This document shows, piece after piece, positions 1-61,782 of a stretch of 61,782 bases of DNA; the first letter of the stretch is position 1, and every line of letters begins with the position of its first letter. The translations under genes and the position numbers were made by a program. The notes under the pieces were generated by a model that worked only from the letters and a program-made list of their open reading frames with translations, ran no database searches and was not told the DNA's origin. Source of the DNA: a virus; the IMG/VR virus record IMGVR_UViG_3300036785_000389, positions 1 to 61,782 of that record; one strand, 5' to 3'.

Positions 1-125
1 ACAAACTCATAGGCAAGATCGACGCCGCGCATCTCGGCCAGTGCCTTGACCTTGCGCTGTTGCTCTCGCAGCGACGTGCCTTCAATCTGTTCCTCGGTCG
101 AACAGCGAGCGTACCCTAAGATCAT
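1..125 (-). CDS. Serine recombinase, N-terminal part (same gene as 61071-61766)
   Basis: This stretch encodes the first 41 residues of the serine recombinase that is complete at the right end of the window. It begins at the ATG complementary to 123-125 and runs off position 1. The leader seen here (complement of 127-140) contains a GGGGAGAG Shine-Dalgarno sequence suitably spaced from the ATG. It is therefore the genuine upstream region of the gene, and the 61768-61782 sequence is not. On a closed circle this is one gene, immediately downstream of the epimerase. Confidence 0.85.
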   Translation of the reverse strand, partial: MILGYARCSTEEQIEGTSLREQQRKVKALAEMRGVDLAYEF

Positions 126-126
126 G
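1..126. repeat. Terminal direct repeat, left copy
   Basis: Bases 1-126 are identical to 61642-61767. The match ends where the sequence after the shared ATG diverges: position 127 reads into a normal leader, whereas 61768 onward reads into an inverted copy of nearby sequence. The length and position fit either the overlap of a circular contig or a short direct terminal repeat; sequence alone does not decide. Confidence 0.9.
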
Positions 127-139
127 GTTCTCTCCCCAA

Positions 140-7148: not shown

Positions 7149-8659
7149 CCGCTAACACCGCTTCCGATGTTATCCACTACAGTCGTCGGCGTTGTTGATG
7201 TTCCGGCGTAAGCAATCAACTTCGCGCTCCCGGCATTGGTCCCGCAGACAATAGCGAGCTTCGCCCCTGGAGCGCCAGGAGCAACACCAGATGCGGTGAT
7301 CTTTCCCATTCCAAGTTCGCCATTAGACACTGATAAGAGCGCTGCAATAACCATGTTGGGAATAATCATCTTCTGGCCATCAGTAGAGTTACCCGGATAG
7401 AGGTCTGTTCCGACGACGGAAGTGCTTTCGCCCTGATCCGCGTTGCACAGCGGCGTGGACATCAAGCCAATACCGCCACCAATGACCTGAGTTTGCCTTG
7501 TCCCTGACGAACCAAAGTCGATGCCGCAAGTCGGCGCGCTATTGAACGCCTCGATGCTCGGGTTGATGATCCTCACGCGCTGTATTGTCGAGGGCGACCC
7601 GGCGAACAAGATGCCTGAGCCATTGGTCTTGAGATTGACGATCATGCTTGTATCGGAAGCGATGATCTTCAGTCCGGTATTCTGCCCGTTTAGTTCGTTG
7701 CCGACGAGATTGCTGTCGCCATAAGGTGTCGGGGTGTTGATAACGATTCCCCAACCACCCTGAGTGCCCTGAATATAGTTGTCGGTGAACCAGTTCGAGA
7801 TGAGGAAACTACCGAGGAATATCCCGCCCCAAAGATTGTTCATCACAATACGATTGATGTGCAAGTTGGTAACGCCGTTGCCAGAGGTGCCAGCCACGGA
7901 AAATCCATATCCGTCCGTCGCAGTCATCCCGTTTGCTTGCGAAATCTGGAAATCCTGAAACAGCGCCGCTTTGCCCTGATAGCAACCTGTCCAGCCTGAG
8001 AACCAGCCTGTAAAGCACGCCGTCGCCGCCACCTGACTGGTGTACGAAATCGTAAAGACCGTTCCGGTAGGGTTACGATTCCAGATAATCGAAAGACCAC
8101 CACCGTCGCCAACGAACGTGGTTGGTGAGCTAATCGTGAAGCCGCTGGTGACGTTGTAGTTCCCGGTGCGAAGATGAACGGGCTTGCCAGTCGCTATCGC
8201 CGCCGCAATCGCCGCCGTATCGTCATGATTAACCGTCTGCGTTGTAGCTGTCGTAATTGCGGCGTCGTTGAGCGTAAATGTCGTGCCTGAGATATTGGTA
8301 ACGCTCGTTATTAATTCCGTATTGCCACCCGTTCCGGCGTTGGCAACAGCAATGCCCATACCGATTGACCAGCCAGTAGCACTAGCAACCGTAAGTGTTT
8401 TTGAACTGGCTGTGATTGATCCTGTCGTCGTCGTTATGATGCCAGCAGCATTTTCAGACAAGATCGGATCGACGTAGTTTGTCGCCATCGTAGCAAGCGC
8501 CTGCGTCGTTGTCTTGACCGCAGGGTTGGCACCCTGAAATACAGGGAATTGTTCTTGCCCATTGAGAGTAGAAGCCGCACCGAGATTATTGATTGTCGAA
8601 CCAGCCCAAGCAGATTGGATAAGCAATAATGCTGCGAGAACATTTGCAAGCCATCTCAT
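7142..8659 (-). CDS. Pectate-lyase-fold (beta-helix) tailspike-like protein with signal peptide
   Basis: The 505-residue protein has an N-terminal signal peptide (LAALLLIQSAWA) followed by a linker and, from about residue 140, a right-handed beta-helix signature: HDDTAAIAAAI, PVHLRTGNYNV and SPTTFVGDGG, typical of Pectate_lyase_3 phage spikes. The C-terminal 80 residues form a separate Gly/Ala-rich domain. Such proteins bind or depolymerise host surface glycans. ATGA couples it to the 53-residue gene upstream. It is the second beta-helix protein in the genome, with the tailspike at 33962-36193. Confidence 0.8.
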   Translation of the reverse strand: MRWLANVLAALLLIQSAWAGSTINNLGAASTLNGQEQFPVFQGANPAVKTTTQALATMATNYVDPILSENAAGIITTTTGSITASSKTLTVASATGWSIGMGIAVANAGTGGNTELITSVTNISGTTFTLNDAAITTATTQTVNHDDTAAIAAAIATGKPVHLRTGNYNVTSGFTISSPTTFVGDGGGLSIIWNRNPTGTVFTISYTSQVAATACFTGWFSGWTGCYQGKAALFQDFQISQANGMTATDGYGFSVAGTSGNGVTNLHINRIVMNNLWGGIFLGSFLISNWFTDNYIQGTQGGWGIVINTPTPYGDSNLVGNELNGQNTGLKIIASDTSMIVNLKTNGSGILFAGSPSTIQRVRIINPSIEAFNSAPTCGIDFGSSGTRQTQVIGGGIGLMSTPLCNADQGESTSVVGTDLYPGNSTDGQKMIIPNMVIAALLSVSNGELGMGKITASGVAPGAPGAKLAIVCGTNAGSAKLIAYAGTSTTPTTVVDNIGSGVSGC

Positions 8660-8817
8660 TGGTATAACAACTCGCTTCCTGTATCGACCAAGATCGCGTT
8701 GCTAACGGATAGGTCTATGGCGTTAGCTGAGGAACTTCCACCACCGACGCCGTGCGTCCAGGCAGCCAGAGTAAGCGCAGCCACTACGATGAAGGTTGAT
8801 CTTAGTAAGATTACCAT
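8656..8817 (-). CDS. 53-residue exported or membrane-anchored peptide
   Basis: The ATG at 8817 encodes 53 residues: a basic start, a hydrophobic segment (STFIVVAALTLAAW) and a Gly/Ser-rich stretch leading to a short polar tail. It lies between two large spike genes and overlaps the next start as ATGA. Like its neighbours it looks exported. A role as a fibre accessory or chaperone is possible but not shown. Confidence 0.5.
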   Translation of the reverse strand: MVILLRSTFIVVAALTLAAWTHGVGGGSSSANAIDLSVSNAILVDTGSELLYQ

Positions 8818-8820
8818 ATC

Positions 8821-9540
8821 TCAAGCCGATTTTATTGCGCAGCCATAGCCGACCCAGAACGTTGAGCTGCCCATTGCATAGCCAACAGAAACGCTTGCTG
8901 CTCCAACAGCATAACTTGATGCGTTTTGATTAACCCCGGTGTTTACCTTGCCTATATCGACGCAACCAACGGCCGGAACTGTAAAATTCTGCGCGGCTGC
9001 ATTGAGCCATCCAGCGATAGCAAGTTCGTTCGTTGCGCTAGTAATTGTCACTGATGGGCTGCTAGATATTGCACTATTGGTTGCGTAATCGTGGAACGTA
9101 GTCGTTCCACCCGATTGATCCGTACCAGTCGTGGACAACGCCGCTAATGATACCGTCCCGCCGCCAGTGAACGTCGCTACGATATTGTTAGCGCCAGAGG
9201 CAGGCGCGACTAAGCCAAAGACTGTTCCATCCGCCCCAATGCCTGTCATCGACACGCCGTTATAGGTAACAGACGAGCCGCCAAATACGCCAGTGTTTTG
9301 CAGGAGTATAACGACAAGGGCGCGTTGCGTTCCCGAGCCGACTGTAAACGACGTTGATGCCCCTGACGCTACGCCGCCTGTGAACTGAGAGTTGTCGAAA
9401 GTAACCGGGCCTCCGCCGCCGCCAGACGGCACCGCTTTGAACACACCCTCGCCAATCATCTGCGCACGAACGAGCGCGGGCGCGGCAAAAAGCGCCGCAG
9501 CGCCTAGCAGAAGTTTTCGGCGTGGCAGGATCAAGCGCAT
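8821..9540 (-). CDS. Tat-signal fibre-like protein
   Basis: 239 residues beginning with a twin-arginine-type export signal (PRRKLLLGAAALFAAPALVRA), then a Gly-rich linker and an all-beta Ser/Gly/Thr-rich body of about 190 residues resembling phage fibre or adhesin domains. The ATG at 9540 follows TAGGAG and is preferred over the longer frame. The protein lies in an uninterrupted series of signal-bearing fibre genes. A Tat signal on a putative virion component is unusual; it could instead be a protein secreted during lysogeny. Confidence 0.65.
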   Translation of the reverse strand: MRLILPRRKLLLGAAALFAAPALVRAQMIGEGVFKAVPSGGGGGPVTFDNSQFTGGVASGASTSFTVGSGTQRALVVILLQNTGVFGGSSVTYNGVSMTGIGADGTVFGLVAPASGANNIVATFTGGGTVSLAALSTTGTDQSGGTTTFHDYATNSAISSSPSVTITSATNELAIAGWLNAAAQNFTVPAVGCVDIGKVNTGVNQNASSYAVGAASVSVGYAMGSSTFWVGYGCAIKSA

Positions 9541-17169: not shown

Positions 17170-17381
17170 ATCGCCGGGCGTCCGCTCAACATAACCGGCC
17201 GCTCTTGCTGGCGTCGCATCCTGGCGAGTAGCTTTCCGTCTCTCATTTCAGCGTCGCCAAAAATCAGGACTCCAAATCGTGGAGAGTGGGCCGTAAGAGG
17301 ATAATGGACGCACCACGGAGCGTGGCCGTCGTTATCAACCCCGCACCAATTGCAGCGCAGAATCGGGTTACGAAGCATCAT
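17166..17381 (-). CDS. Small zinc-finger-like protein
   Basis: 71 residues from the ATG at 17381 with AAGGGG upstream. CNWCGVDNDGHAPWCVHYP provides a CxxC...CxxH set suited to a zinc site. It overlaps the end of the previous gene by 14 nt and is the last gene of the minus-strand replication operon. Function unknown. Confidence 0.5.
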   Translation of the reverse strand: MMLRNPILRCNWCGVDNDGHAPWCVHYPLTAHSPRFGVLIFGDAEMRDGKLLARMRRQQERPVMLSGRPAI

Positions 17382-18042
17382 GTTTTTGCCCCTTAAGCGT
17401 TTCCAGTAACGACGGAGAGACGCCGCGCCCCGGATCAATGCCGGCGGCAGCACATTCGCGACTTAATATAGTCTCTGAGGCGCGCAAGTGTGTCTCTCGC
17501 ATGATGCTTTTCGCCTCATCCGCAGCATCTTTTCCCCGCCTATCCCTCGCCAGCCAACCACCCTTTCCGTCGCCGTATTTGTCCTTTAACTCATCATAGG
17601 TCGGTCGGTTTGCTTTGTCCGCTTGCTCTAGCTCGAATAGCTCTCGTTCGGTGAATTGCTGCCGAATACGTTCATCCCGCAACCTATCGTGCTCGACCTT
17701 TTCCGCCTCATTGTCGCAGAACTCTTTAACCTCTGCTGGCGTCGGTAAAAACTTCATTGTCGAGGCTAACCCCGTGCGCGGGTCGGTCGCTAAAATAACA
17801 ATCCATTGGGGATAAATCGACAGAACCGCCGCGACCGCCGCGCAATACATCTCAGGATCGTGGGCCTCATCCTTTCGGTAACAAGCGAACAGGATTCGCG
17901 TTCTCTCTAGGAAAAAGTCCGGGTCTGGTTGGCATTGCGCCGAAACTGAACTCTCCAACTCTTGCTTTTTCGGCAAGACGCCCAGCGGCGCGACTAATGC
18001 TGAGGTCATTGTCTTGAAGTGGTCGCGGTCCTCTCGATCCAT
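17368..18042 (-). CDS. Replication-associated phage protein
   Basis: 224 residues. A compact helical domain at about 45-110 (RTRILFACYRKDEAHDP, AAVAAVLSIYP, FLPTPAEVKEFCD) recurs, from memory, in rhizobial prophages just after DnaT-like genes, where replisome organisers or helicase-loader partners are expected. The rest is a charged, possibly coiled region. AAAGGA sits 9 nt before the ATG at 18042, although that start lies 176 nt inside the upstream gene in another frame. Confidence 0.6.
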   Translation of the reverse strand: MDREDRDHFKTMTSALVAPLGVLPKKQELESSVSAQCQPDPDFFLERTRILFACYRKDEAHDPEMYCAAVAAVLSIYPQWIVILATDPRTGLASTMKFLPTPAEVKEFCDNEAEKVEHDRLRDERIRQQFTERELFELEQADKANRPTYDELKDKYGDGKGGWLARDRRGKDAADEAKSIMRETHLRASETILSRECAAAGIDPGRGVSPSLLETLKGQKHDAS

Positions 18043-18259
18043 TGCCGTTTCCTTTCGCTATCCTACGCAGCCATCCCTTAAACGCCATGCTCCAGTTTGA
18101 CTTGCGGGCTATCTGGCGATTTGAATTTGCTCCTGCCCATAATTTCAAATCCTCAATAGCGTCGTCAATTTGTGTTCTCGTGAGGCCGAGCTTTTTTCCG
18201 TAATCTAGGTCATCGCATGTCGGTTGCCAATCGTGAGGAAGCGATGATCCAGACGCCAT
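17867..18259 (-). CDS. DnaT/replisome-organiser-like protein
   Basis: 130 residues. LPHDWQPTCDDLDYGKKLGL and WAGANSNRQIARKSNW followed by WLRRI match the pattern of the phage DnaT-like domain that helps load helicase. The tail, SISRAAGRLAEKARVGEFSFG then VRLLPKG, also looks conserved. This supports a genuine 176-nt out-of-frame overlap with the next gene rather than a wrong start. Probably part of the replication initiation machinery. Confidence 0.6.
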   Translation of the reverse strand: MASGSSLPHDWQPTCDDLDYGKKLGLTRTQIDDAIEDLKLWAGANSNRQIARKSNWSMAFKGWLRRIAKGNGNGSRGPRPLQDNDLSISRAAGRLAEKARVGEFSFGAMPTRPGLFPRENANPVRLLPKG

Positions 18260-18260
18260 T

Positions 18261-18479
18261 TTATTTCTCCATTCTCTTATTTGTTACAGAAAGTTTACGG
18301 TTTTCAAATGCAATTCTTGCTCGATTTTTATTCAAAATAAAATTCATTTTGCGGTTAAAAGCACCAGGAAAATGTTGCAAACGAGGAATTTCCGTAAAAA
18401 AATAAATAGTTTTCAAGGGTTTAACTTTGTCAAACTCAAGATTTATGCCATGAAATTTCATTGTGATCTGATTCTCCAT
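18261..18479 (-). CDS. Hypothetical basic protein
   Basis: 72 residues from the ATG at 18479; very Lys/Asn/Phe-rich and more AT-rich than its neighbours, which suggests recent acquisition. No motif recognised. The frame extends upstream into the structured RNA region, and the hairpin at 18497-18526 argues against the longer start. The gene lies 1 nt upstream of the DnaT-like gene. Confidence 0.45.
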   Translation of the reverse strand: MENQITMKFHGINLEFDKVKPLKTIYFFTEIPRLQHFPGAFNRKMNFILNKNRARIAFENRKLSVTNKRMEK

Positions 18480-18496
18480 AGCTGCCGCTTTTCCCC

Positions 18497-18912
18497 CTTG
18501 GTATAGGCTCACGCCTATGGACCAAGCCCTCACGACAAGGGCGTAATGGGGTACTAAATTGTCCCCGGCCCGGCTTAATAAGGCCCCGGACCATTTCTAC
18601 GGCTCGTCAGTTCCGTAGAACCTTGGTAGGCCCACGCGGCTTTCACCGCGCCAAGGTGCTAGTTGCCAATACTACAGGCAGAGCCAGCAATTTGTTTTCT
18701 GAGGGTAGGAGACGCCCCAGCCCGTCGCCACATTGCGATCACCGTGGTCATAGCTCGATCGGCTATTAGGCCGGGCTGGCAGGGGCTTGGGTCTTGACCT
18801 GGAGGTAAAGTGAATGTAAATCACATTTACTTCCTTCGTTCCGCAGCCTTGCCAAAGACCTTGCGGACATCGCCCGGCCGGGATCGCATCTCGCGCCGGG
18901 CTTCTCTTTTTT
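18497..18912 (+). ncRNA. Candidate large structured non-coding RNA
   Basis: Over 415 nt without a credible reading frame there are at least nine stem-loops. They include 18497-18508/18513-18526 (two 6-bp helices, TCAC loop), 18595-18602/18613-18620 (8 bp perfect), 18621-18626/18651-18656 enclosing 18635-18639/18646-18650, and a three-way junction closed by 18714-18724/18772-18786 with arms 18728-18731/18744-18747 and 18750-18754/18762-18766. A 13-bp stem follows at 18801-18813/18821-18834. The last hairpin is followed by a U-tract only in the plus orientation. A weak promoter candidate (TTAACT, 17 nt, TATGCC) lies at 18421-18449. If read as minus it would instead be a leader of the 18479 gene. 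Confidence 0.55.
18872..18912 (+). terminator. Rho-independent terminator of the structured RNA
   Basis: GCCCGGC (18872-18878) pairs with GCCGGGC (18895-18901). Inside, CGGGA pairs with TCTCG, leaving a 5-nt loop, and TTCTCTTTTTT follows directly. This is the clearest intrinsic terminator in the window, and it works in the plus direction although all adjacent genes are on the minus strand. Confidence 0.8.
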
Positions 18913-18975
18913 AACGCTAAAATGACAACATTTCCAAGACCATACAGATAGATGTTATTTGTTGATTTCCTACTA

Positions 18976-19191
18976 TCAGTTGATTTTAGGCGGTTCCCGG
19001 TCTTTACAGTCGCCGCAGCACCACCACATCAGCAATGACCATTGGCCGTGAACCGGACCAAGATCGCCCACAAAACGCCAGCCATTCGATAGCGCCATAA
19101 TCACTAGGCGATGTGCCACGAACGCGAAAATTCCGCGCGTAGGACTTTCTAATCGACTAGGCACAAGCGGCCTCACGAGCAAACAGGTCAT
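18976..19191 (-). CDS. Small Trp/Cys-rich protein
   Basis: Up to 71 residues; the C-terminal 45 (NGWRFVGDLGPVHGQW, then a MWWCCGDC cysteine cluster) are protein-like and recall small phage proteins that follow methylase genes. The start is uncertain: ATG at 19191 overlaps the methyltransferase by 35 nt, and ATG at 19098 gives only 40 residues. The cysteines may bind metal. Confidence 0.45.
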   Translation of the reverse strand: MTCLLVRPLVPSRLESPTRGIFAFVAHRLVIMALSNGWRFVGDLGPVHGQWSLLMWWCCGDCKDREPPKIN

Positions 19192-20050
19192 CTTGTCGGT
19201 CCTGGGCGTCCAGATAACGGCAGGCTTGGCGCCAATAACTCTCTTTCAGCTCTACGCCGATAAACCGGCGCTTTAATTTCAGGCTCGATACACCTTCGCT
19301 TCCGATGCCCATGAATGGCGACAAAACGACATCTCCGGCGTTGCTCCACATAATCAATGCGCGTTCGATAACGTCGAGCTGCAGGGGGCAAAGGTGGCGT
19401 TCGTCGTTTTTCTCACGCGCCAGTTTGACGTTTAGAACGTTGGATTGTTGCACAGTCATCCAAACCGGAGACGCCCACTCCTGCCATTGATCGAGGGGAA
19501 AATCTTGCGGGGTGTGATTGATAGGGTCGGGGTTGTCGCCTGGCTTGATGAATGTCAGCAAATAGTCAGGCATTCCACCGCGCGATTTGCTGCTGTCTTT
19601 TTGCAGTTGCTTGTAAAGCAAGCCAACGTGCTTAGTACGGGTCATTTCGACAACCGGACATTTCCAGATTGTCCGGCGCCCATGATAAATCCATCCAGCA
19701 TCTTCATGGGCGCGAATAATCTGGCCGCTGAAATCCTTAATCCCAACCGCGCCGTCTTTCCATTTTGTCATCGGCAGGTCGGAACAATGCACGGCGGTTA
19801 GCCGTCCAGGCATTGTCACTCGTAGTTTTTCCCGCACTAAAAAAGCATAGTGCTCGGAAAATTCTTCATCCGTGCTGTTGCCCATATCCGCCGCTCCTTC
19901 GGAATAAACAAAAAGAGATCCGAACGGCGGAGAATAGACCGAAAATCCAACGCTATCCTGCGGCAACTGGCTAACAACATCGACGCAATCACCGTTAATG
20001 GATTGATAATTATTGCCGTGCGATTCGTTTAAGCAGCGGATTTTATCCAT
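19157..20050 (-). CDS. Site-specific DNA methyltransferase (N4/N6 amino type)
   Basis: 297 residues. The catalytic SPPF motif is at 40-43 and the AdoMet-binding region SPFMGIGSEG at 244-253, preceded by HLCPLQLDVIERAL. The order, catalytic motif first, is that of beta-class amino-methyltransferases; SPPF rather than DPPY favours N4-cytosine but does not prove it. It overlaps the helicase gene by 22 nt, and no endonuclease lies nearby. It is probably an orphan phage methyltransferase that protects its own DNA or alters methylation-dependent transcription, interesting beside the GcrA-like gene. Confidence 0.85.
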   Translation of the reverse strand: MDKIRCLNESHGNNYQSINGDCVDVVSQLPQDSVGFSVYSPPFGSLFVYSEGAADMGNSTDEEFSEHYAFLVREKLRVTMPGRLTAVHCSDLPMTKWKDGAVGIKDFSGQIIRAHEDAGWIYHGRRTIWKCPVVEMTRTKHVGLLYKQLQKDSSKSRGGMPDYLLTFIKPGDNPDPINHTPQDFPLDQWQEWASPVWMTVQQSNVLNVKLAREKNDERHLCPLQLDVIERALIMWSNAGDVVLSPFMGIGSEGVSSLKLKRRFIGVELKESYWRQACRYLDAQDRQDDLFAREAACA

Positions 20051-22494: not shown

Positions 22495-23463
22495 ATGGCG
22501 GATCAATTTGCGTGGTACAAAGAAGCCATTGATGGAAGGCGCGGCGATATAACTGACGAACCAATGTCAGGATTTTATCGTAATCGTCGTAGGGGGCAAC
22601 AAGCAGAGGCCATCGCATATTGGCGCGATACTAAAAACGGAAATCTGCGATGCCAAATCGATGGCGAAGATGTCGATGAAATGCGAGCGCGAGAAACTTG
22701 GCCCTTCGCGAGCAAAGAGCCTATCGCTCACGAAATGTTCAAGGCCAAGATGTCCACAGGAAAATGGCCCGATATGGACGATGCTGCATTTTCCACATTG
22801 CCGCTTTCCCGCGAAGTAGTCGGCGGAAATAATCCTCCCGCCGATTCTCTCGATATTTTGAGAGAGCAAATTGAATCTGCAAAAGCGGGCGCGGTTGATT
22901 ATTCCAAAATCAGTGACGATCAAACCGCCGCGAAAGCACAGTCCCTTCGCTCTCGATTATTGGAATTGAGCGGGAGCGCCGATAAAAAAAGAGAGGCAGA
23001 AAAACGCCCTCATTTCGAGGCCGGCAAAGCCGTTGATGAGAAATGGCAGCCGCTCGTTAAAATGGCAAAGGCGGCGGCAGACAGTATCAGGTCAGCCCTA
23101 AGTGCCTGGGAAACCGAAAAGGACCGAAAAACTAGGGAGGTTTTCAGGCTTGCCGAGGAGGCCCGTAGGAAGGCCGAGGATGAGGCAAAAGCCGCCGAGG
23201 CGGCAGGACTACCAGCCGCCCCCATTCCGCCGCCCGTAGCGCCTCCTGTGCAAGTCTCCGCCCCTATTAAAGGGGCTTATGGCCGGGCTGGAAGCGTCAA
23301 ACAAATCAAGGTCGCCGTCATAACCGACCAAGCTAAGGTCTATGAGACATTCAAAGACAGGCCAGAAGTGATTGAATTACTTAGAAAATTATCACAAAAA
23401 GCCATTGATGACGGCTATGATGTGCCTGGAATAACGGTTGATCTGCAAAGGAAGGTGTCATGA
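22495..23463 (+). CDS. Phage protein of the Bet operon, coiled-coil
   Basis: 322 residues from the ATG at 22495 (AAAGGA upstream). The middle (VVGGNNPPADSL, KAQSLRSRLLELSGSADKKRE, GKAVDEKWQPLVKMAKAAAD, then a charged coiled-coil) and the C-terminal GAYGRAGSVKQIKVAVITD form a pattern often seen beside RecT/Bet genes in rhizobial phages (DUF1351-like). It overlaps bet by ATGA. Probably assists recombination; no nuclease motif is evident. Confidence 0.6.
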   Translation: MADQFAWYKEAIDGRRGDITDEPMSGFYRNRRRGQQAEAIAYWRDTKNGNLRCQIDGEDVDEMRARETWPFASKEPIAHEMFKAKMSTGKWPDMDDAAFSTLPLSREVVGGNNPPADSLDILREQIESAKAGAVDYSKISDDQTAAKAQSLRSRLLELSGSADKKREAEKRPHFEAGKAVDEKWQPLVKMAKAAADSIRSALSAWETEKDRKTREVFRLAEEARRKAEDEAKAAEAAGLPAAPIPPPVAPPVQVSAPIKGAYGRAGSVKQIKVAVITDQAKVYETFKDRPEVIELLRKLSQKAIDDGYDVPGITVDLQRKVS

Positions 23464-30689: not shown

Positions 30690-31294
30690 TCCTTAAAGGA
30701 GACGCCGCGAAAGCGGCGGCAATTCTCGGCGACGGCTCCGGCTACGGCTACGGCGACGGCTCCGGCTCCGGCTACGGCTACGGCGACGGCTCCGGCTACG
30801 GCTCCGGCTACGGCGACGGCTCCGGCTACGGCGACGGCTACGGCGACGGCTACGGCTCCGGCGACGGCTACGGCTACGGCTCCGGCTACGGCGACGGCGA
30901 CGGCTCCGGCTACGGCGACGGCGACGGCTCCGTCTACGGCGACGGCTCCTATTGGCAGTCCTGCATTGCCTACTTTGCCGAGAAATGGAACACCGAGCAG
31001 AAGAAGCGCCTTGCCGAACTGCAAGGCGCAGGCGCAAAAATTTGTTTCTGGCGATCCAGTAATAGCGGTCATGCATCGAATGGCGGCAAGAAGATCGAAG
31101 TCGCCGCCCCCGGTGTTGTCCATAAGGAAAACGGCCCGCTTAATCTCTGCAATGCTGGTACACTTCACGCCACACTCATTCCGCCAAAGTGGAAAGGCGA
31201 GCGTTGGTGGATTGTCGCCCTTATCGGTGAGGTCGTGGGTGATGACGAAAAGTACGGTGCACTTGAGCGTGAAATAATTGGTGAAGCAGTTTGA
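30677..31294 (+). CDS. Gly-Tyr/Asp/Ser repeat protein with DUF7666-like C-terminal domain
   Basis: 205 residues from GTG 30677 (GGGAG, 7 nt; ATG 30662 is an alternative). After a short start, residues about 18-91 are 37 dipeptides of Gly paired with Tyr, Ser or Asp (GYGYGDGSGSGYG and so on), all encoded as GGC-TAC, GGC-TCC or GGC-GAC except one GTC. The C-terminal 115 residues (AKICFWRSSNS, PLNLCNAGTLHATL, ERWWIVALIGEV) match a DUF7666-like domain. The repeat is flexible and aromatic, so it could self-associate. Last gene of the rightward operon. Confidence 0.7.
   Translation: MEPVILKGDAAKAAAILGDGSGYGYGDGSGSGYGYGDGSGYGSGYGDGSGYGDGYGDGYGSGDGYGYGSGYGDGDGSGYGDGDGSVYGDGSYWQSCIAYFAEKWNTEQKKRLAELQGAGAKICFWRSSNSGHASNGGKKIEVAAPGVVHKENGPLNLCNAGTLHATLIPPKWKGERWWIVALIGEVVGDDEKYGALEREIIGEAV
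30728..30949 (+). repeat. 37-unit GGCNNC hexanucleotide repeat
   Basis: 222 bp made of the hexamers GGCTAC, GGCTCC and GGCGAC in irregular order (one GTCTAC). Copy number could change by slippage in steps of six bases without breaking the frame. Confidence 0.9.
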
Positions 31295-61078: not shown

Positions 61079-61766
61079 GCACCCGCTCCATGATTCTCTG
61101 CATCTGGTTTGCTTGGAACGGCTTGCCTGAGCGGGACAAAATGCCTTCCTTCCTACACTGGCGTAGGATTTTCCAACGTGACGCTCGCTCTCCCTCGATC
61201 ATTGATCGAACCCTTTCGATAACTGCCTGTTCCTCGGGAATAGGCTCAAGCTGTGCCTGTTTTCCCATCCCCACCTTACGCCAGCCATAAGGAACGGTTC
61301 CTATGCAGCCGCCCCTAGCCCGCTTGGCCTCGCGACCATCCTGCATACGCTCGGCAATACGAGAGCGTTCAAACTCGGCCATGAGCGCCAACATGCCGAA
61401 AAACAACTTGGCGGTTCCGGAATCGGTCACAGGCTCAACGCCAAGGTCTATCAGGATCAAACCGATACCGCGTTTCTTCAAAAGATCGGCAGTATTGAGA
61501 GCGTCGGACGCCGAACGGAACAAGCGATCTAGTTTTGTGCTAACTATAATATCTCCCTTGCCGGCGTCGGACAGTAGTTTCCCGCCATTGGGACGTTCCG
61601 CCAAAGGAATTGTTCCTGATACTCCAGCATCGACATAAGAAACAAACTCATAGGCAAGATCGACGCCGCGCATCTCGGCCAGTGCCTTGACCTTGCGCTG
61701 TTGCTCTCGCAGCGACGTGCCTTCAATCTGTTCCTCGGTCGAACAGCGAGCGTACCCTAAGATCAT
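61071..61766 (-). CDS. Serine recombinase (resolvase/invertase type)
   Basis: 231 residues. Catalytic serine at position 9 (YARCSTEEQ), then KLDRLFRSASDALNTADLL, GMLALMAEFERSRIAERM and a short recombinase/HTH-like C-terminus (FQANQMQRIMERV). The family catalyses site-specific inversion, resolution or integration. At 231 residues it is longer than a simple invertase but lacks the large domains of phage integrases. It is the only integration-capable enzyme seen. The reading frame continues into the left copy of the repeat (1-125). Confidence 0.85.
   Translation of the reverse strand: MILGYARCSTEEQIEGTSLREQQRKVKALAEMRGVDLAYEFVSYVDAGVSGTIPLAERPNGGKLLSDAGKGDIIVSTKLDRLFRSASDALNTADLLKKRGIGLILIDLGVEPVTDSGTAKLFFGMLALMAEFERSRIAERMQDGREAKRARGGCIGTVPYGWRKVGMGKQAQLEPIPEEQAVIERVRSMIEGERASRWKILRQCRKEGILSRSGKPFQANQMQRIMERVRG
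61634..61651. repeat. 18-bp element, inverted at the right end
   Basis: CATAAGAAACAAACTCAT lies inside the recombinase gene, and its exact reverse complement forms the last 18 bases of the window (61765-61782). Confidence 0.8.
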
Positions 61767-61767
61767 G
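61642..61767. repeat. Terminal direct repeat, right copy
   Basis: Identical to 1-126 and including the start of the recombinase gene. Supports circularity or direct terminal redundancy. Confidence 0.9.
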
Positions 61768-61782
61768 AGTTTGTTTCTTATG
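61765..61782. repeat. Inverted tail of the contig
   Basis: The last 18 bases are the reverse complement of 61634-61651, replacing the true gene leader seen after position 126. This is what a foldback artefact at a contig end looks like. Confidence 0.75.

Follow-up and report, generated by a model that had tools for sequence, protein, structure and literature searches.

What does a phage keep in 415 nt that contain no open reading frame with a relative, next to its DNA-replication genes? The question is raised by positions 18497-18912 of the window, the whole 61,782-nt stretch analysed here (virus record IMGVR_UViG_3300036785_000389). To our knowledge, few large structured RNAs have been described in phages, and we know of no function for them. 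If the segment encodes one, such a compact RNA, next to replication genes and equipped with a terminator and perhaps a host TetR operator, would allow the control of phage replication by RNA or by antisense transcription to be put to the test. If it is an origin region instead, it would show where replication starts in a poorly known group of phages that has links to alphaproteobacteria.

Setting and structure of the interval

A second, 99.98% identical record (G001) spans positions 30727-61771 and then resumes at 1-2115; about 129 bp of it align at both ends of the window (1-129 and 61643-61771), which makes the genome circular or terminally redundant. The interval lies outside G001, whose match starts at a 24-bp tandem repeat array (CGGCTACGGCTC...; 30727-30947), probably an assembly break. 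No tRNA occurs in the 61.8 kb window, and a tRNA array was rejected on this ground. All genes between 17.4 and 21.9 kb lie on the minus strand. The polarity proposed by an earlier, sequence-only reading of this DNA, a terminator pointing against every adjacent gene, is therefore correct for this block yet not for 15-17 kb or beyond 22.4 kb, where plus-strand genes are found. Along the minus strand the order is RusA resolvase, helicase, N6/N4 DNA methyltransferase (19157-20050), a small conserved phage gene (p71, 18976-19191; 53% identity over 45 aa to L043) and the interval. The methyltransferase served to find related phages; among bacterial genomes, its relatives come mostly from alphaproteobacterial bins (Mesorhizobium, Azospirillum, Bosea). 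Beyond the interval, still on the minus strand, come an AT-rich stretch of about 220 bp (18261-18479, 28-35% GC), a 130-aa gene (17867-18259) and a 224-aa gene (17368-18042). The AT-rich stretch holds a 72-aa ORF whose stop adjoins the next start codon, and a search for relatives of this ORF found none.

By sequence comparison, the 130-aa and 224-aa genes look like a replication module. Their counterparts are adjacent in a related phage (L082), where the first encodes a 267-aa protein; the replication-type 130-aa protein matches only the C-terminal half of this relative (residues 142-267), and its match to the DnaT DNA-binding domain is weak (E 0.012, below the cut-off). The 130-aa gene has its own GGAG ribosome-binding-site-like motif and lacks the N-terminal half. 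In a Microcystis phage, a relative of the 224-aa gene comes after a DUF1376 protein; the DUF1376 domain was not found anywhere in the window. In two related loci (L008 and L017), the methyltransferase precedes small genes as well as an initiator-like gene of full length, and the hairpin array is absent from both. The possibility that the interval is a decayed initiator N-terminus was rejected, as initiators of the relatives align only from 18268 leftward. Coding capacity within the interval is equally poor: no ORF longer than 52 aa lies wholly inside, and relatives of two interior minus-strand ORFs were sought without success. We thus reject a coding region, in line with the sequence-only reading. 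A 34-codon plus-strand ORF (18810-18914) has GGAGG upstream and would cross the terminator hairpin.

Reading and folding the sequence revealed about 11 hairpins that tile the interval with little spacer, and every element listed in the earlier account, which counted at least nine stem-loops, was located. On the plus strand, folding gives H1 (18497-18526), a 12-bp two-helix hairpin with a GG bulge and a UCAC loop; H2 (18526-18542), a 5-bp GC hairpin (GCCCU/AGGGC); H3 (18548-18567), a GGGG/CCCC hairpin; and H4 (18571-18590), a weak hairpin with alternative pairings and few expected pairs in full context. H5 (18595-18620), evident in the sequence as well as on folding, is a perfect 8-bp stem with a 10-nt loop; H6 (18621-18656) combines CCUUGG/CCAAGG with CGCGG/CCGCG; H7 (18658-18688) is interrupted, with GCU/AGC and UGCC/GGCA helices. 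The single unpaired linker of the array, about 25 nt (18689-18713), separates these from H8 (18714-18786), a three-way junction with an 11-bp closing stem, a 4-nt bulge and two inner hairpins, for which competing pairings exist in full context. H9 (18801-18834) is a 13-bp stem with an A bulge and H10 (18840-18867) a UCCGCA/UGCGGA hairpin; H11 (18872-18912), from a hairpin-plus-T-tract scan, is terminator-like and followed by the U-tract TTCTCTTTTTT.

The structure exceeds what composition predicts. Against 150 dinucleotide-preserving shuffles, the minimum free energy of the whole interval is -175.1 kcal/mol versus -147.4 +/- 6.1 (z -4.5; 0/150), and local hairpins (span <=45) reach z -4.95, again unmatched by any of the 150. 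GC content is 50-64% inside and falls to 28-36% on both flanks. The reverse complement is equally stable (z -4.1 whole, -5.0 local), and the 500 nt of 18421-18920 fold with z -4.3 on the plus and -4.0 on the minus strand. The high structure claimed from sequence alone is thus real, yet not unique: when 6341 windows from this phage and its relatives were scanned for composition-corrected folding, the interval came at about 49-58, inside the top 1% yet short of first place. Many coding windows of related phages show comparable folding and several rank higher; the higher-ranking structured windows of those phages were mostly coding on inspection. Within our own window the strongest composition-corrected fold (22681-22950, minus strand, z -4.95) lies inside a plus-strand exonuclease-like gene. 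In L017, a very hairpin-rich, largely intergenic segment (8521-8880) with several long palindromes adjoins a small HTH-repressor-like gene.

Terminator-like site, strand and a palindrome within H9

The hairpin-plus-T-tract scan ranked 18872-18912 (plus strand) first in the window, at -22.2 kcal/mol against -15.7 for the second site, and so agrees, as a sequence match, with the intrinsic terminator proposed earlier. Since 6 of 60 shuffled windows reached a site as strong, it carries weight because it sits exactly where the array ends, and not because such sites are rare. A simple consensus terminator scan missed it, probably because of a bulge. The same hairpin-plus-T-tract scan gave no terminator-like site on the minus strand close to the interval, so that the minus-strand operon probably reads through it. 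Indications of strand conflict. The sole U-tract suits plus-strand transcription only, as had been claimed, and favours that strand; two GNRA loops favour the minus strand, being present there alone (GUGA in H1 and GAAA in H6, with UCAC and CUUUCA as the plus counterparts). No sigma-70-like promoter above chance was found upstream on the plus strand, where the best pair (TTGTCA-N18-TGAAAT, 18427-18456) was equalled in 120 of 300 shuffles, and minus-strand candidates were no better. For the candidate RNA, we prefer the plus strand.

Part of the array may not act as RNA at all. Positions 18810-18830 match an intergenic stretch of a Bosea genome at all 21 bp, and include a palindrome, GTAAAT-N3-ATTTAC (18816-18830), within the 13-bp stem of H9; in the window the core reads TGTAAAT-N3-ATTTAC. 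Compared with the Rhizobiales form, TGTAAAT-N3-ATTTACA, the 15-bp core matches but the outermost base differs. Among 61 genomes of this order, to which Bosea belongs, 8 contain the Rhizobiales form, versus none for a reversed control pattern. In all ten fetched loci (L109-L118, near 1502), ATGTAAAT-N3-ATTTACAT lies between what we take, by sequence recognition rather than profile search, to be a TetR-family gene and a DUF2852 gene; the TetR-family genes are 48-100% identical to the Bosea one. To judge from this arrangement, the Rhizobiales palindrome is likely the operator of the adjacent TetR-family regulator. The phage shares 21 identical bases with this putative operator, including the palindrome, yet no TetR gene was found in the window, nor a relative of DUF2852. 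The 15-bp core occurs once in the window, in none of 100 window shuffles, and was not found in the related phage loci; a TTGACC -35-like hexamer (18794, plus strand) directly precedes the palindrome. Thus, the H9 dyad may act as DNA, a candidate TetR-type operator, instead of as an RNA helix, on the strength of a match that was noticed after the fact.

Search for relatives

No homologue of the interval was retrieved by blastn against phages (INPHARED), plasmids (PLSDB) or 47 related virus records. Six bacterial genomes having the methyltransferase contain none apart from the 21-bp site, and 397 Rhizobiales genomes yielded none at E <= 1e-4, in a search run without a positive control. Exact and peptide-pattern scans of IMG/VR and GTDB, which reach close relatives only, were likewise negative, as were three single-sequence covariance models (R1-R3) applied to 74 sources. 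Several weaker matches were discarded: of the weak BLAST hits in related phages, the two downstream of the methyltransferase (in L046 and L010) lie in gene-like sequence packed with ORFs and were put down to chance, and a 16-mer in L107 lies inside an integrase-like gene that is otherwise dissimilar. With R3, only L024/L103 was notable (21 bits, E ~0.001): three hairpins and a terminator in a methyltransferase operon leader, in the other strand relation. There, R2 gave no match and R1 only a weak, unrelated one, and the R3 match did not recur when the whole record was searched; we reject homology and treat the leader as an analogy. This methyltransferase-helicase operon leader (L103, 6455-6720, minus strand) has successive hairpins and a terminator-like end, with z -3.0.

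Candidate RNA and competing readings

The reading that we prefer, and hold tentatively, is an orphan structured RNA on the plus strand, opposite the replication operon and oop-like by position. An independently transcribed, highly structured ncRNA of about 400-450 nt would begin in or beside the AT-rich stretch (~18430-18497), head away from the replication genes and stop at the predicted intrinsic terminator (18912). Either the act of transcribing it or the RNA product might limit how far transcription of the minus-strand operon continues into the replication genes, in the manner of a lambda oop-type antisense unit. In lambda, pO gives rise to a short transcript opposite to that from pR near the origin, antisense to cII mRNA, and pO activity is proposed to affect how replication initiates, by interplay with transcription from pR (PMC3985674). 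As in the lambda pO-tO unit, the predicted plus-strand RNA would oppose an early operon directly upstream of replication genes; and, just as oop has its own intrinsic terminator, the interval has a putative matching site in the -22.2 kcal/mol hairpin and U-tract, equalled in 6/60 shuffles. The differences are considerable: at 415 nt the interval is more than five times as long as the 77-nt oop and far more structured, its putative promoter is at chance level and it has no known cII target. It has no Rfam or phage-collection match. An oop-type antisense RNA also pairs with an mRNA and destabilises it by way of RNase III.

We favour a plus-strand RNA on several grounds: hairpins beyond all 150 shuffles within a GC-rich island; the window's strongest terminator-like site exactly at the plus-strand end of the array; no coding relatives in a block of exclusively minus-strand genes; and replication-type genes that directly follow the interval in an operon with no minus-strand terminator-like site nearby. 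The sequence-only proposal of such a locus retains its non-coding, hairpin-dense character and its terminator-like end. It is weakened by promoter-like sites at chance level, by equal folding of both strands and by GNRA loops on the minus strand only. The missing homologue, and hence covariation, also counts against it, as do a terminator equalled in 10% of shuffled windows, an H9 that doubles as a likely DNA operator and a length well above that of oop.

The main rival, though on balance unlikely, is a composite replication and regulatory region that works as DNA. Here the AT-rich stretch, hairpins and dyads would form an origin, a single-strand priming or primosome-loading site and operators, and any plus-strand RNA would be a short one, from ~18825 to the terminator. 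The hairpins are adjoined by AT-rich DNA (18261-18480); the replication gene immediately downstream of it has a weak, below cut-off match to the DnaT domain (E 0.012), and AT-rich DNA of the kind that could serve for unwinding at a phage origin is present beside the replication genes (28-35% GC over 18250-18500). Phage origins and primosome-loading sites share such hairpins and AT-rich DNA beside replication genes; yet the interval has no iterons or tandem repeats, of the kind that an initiator binds, that we could find, no clear GC-skew switch at the site, no recognised known site and, at one end, a terminator. The strand-symmetric folding suits a DNA function, as do the palindrome, placed in Rhizobiales only between TetR and DUF2852 genes (8/61 genomes, control 0) and reproduced in 0/100 window shuffles, and the TTGACC hexamer before it. 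No TetR gene was found in the phage, however, and the resemblance to an operator was noticed only afterwards; nor does an origin require GC-rich hairpins with a terminator.

Two further explanations are less likely than a composite DNA region. A structured minus-strand leader or intercistronic RNA controlling the replication operon, which we judge improbable, would account for the two GNRA tetraloops, for the minus-strand fold (z -4.1, local -5.0) and for a position directly before the minus-strand replication genes with no minus terminator-like site nearby. Its 3' side, however, has no U-tract, the only one being suited to plus-strand transcription; promoter-like sites are at chance, and no such leader was present in the related phages inspected. 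Least probable of all is a non-functional remnant or a chance-structured insertion in a mosaic phage genome. This would fit the lack of relatives, a folding rank merely in the top 1% of windows and an adjacent replication gene that looks truncated; but local hairpins at z near -5 (0/150 shuffles) and near-contiguous tiling that ends in a terminator-like site speak against it, and phage genomes seldom retain 650 bp of useless DNA.

Returning to the plus-strand RNA, we asked how it relates to described classes. The resemblance to ROOL and GOLLD noted from sequence alone proved merely general: the interval is likewise phage-borne, has no recognisable ORF and has many helices. ROOL measures 659 nt and is often near tRNA islands, and GOLLD often exceeds 800 nt (PMC12286853); at 415 nt the interval is smaller than both, in a window without tRNAs, and an orphan where they are widespread. 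GOLLD also has a conserved 3' domain. ROOL, GOLLD and any other Rfam family were rejected as its identity for want of a covariance-model match at permissive thresholds, in keeping with the earlier failure to recognise a consensus of the first two; no described RNA family tested takes in the interval. It is very improbable that the interval represents an undescribed class of large structured RNA in phages, orphan across the collections searched, which occupies the place of the N-terminal half of a related phage's initiator and perhaps acts in replication control instead. The evidence throughout comes from a single sequence. Rfam 15 returned no match at E <= 1 for the window or E <= 10 for the interval; one unrelated CRISPR-repeat match lies just outside the interval.
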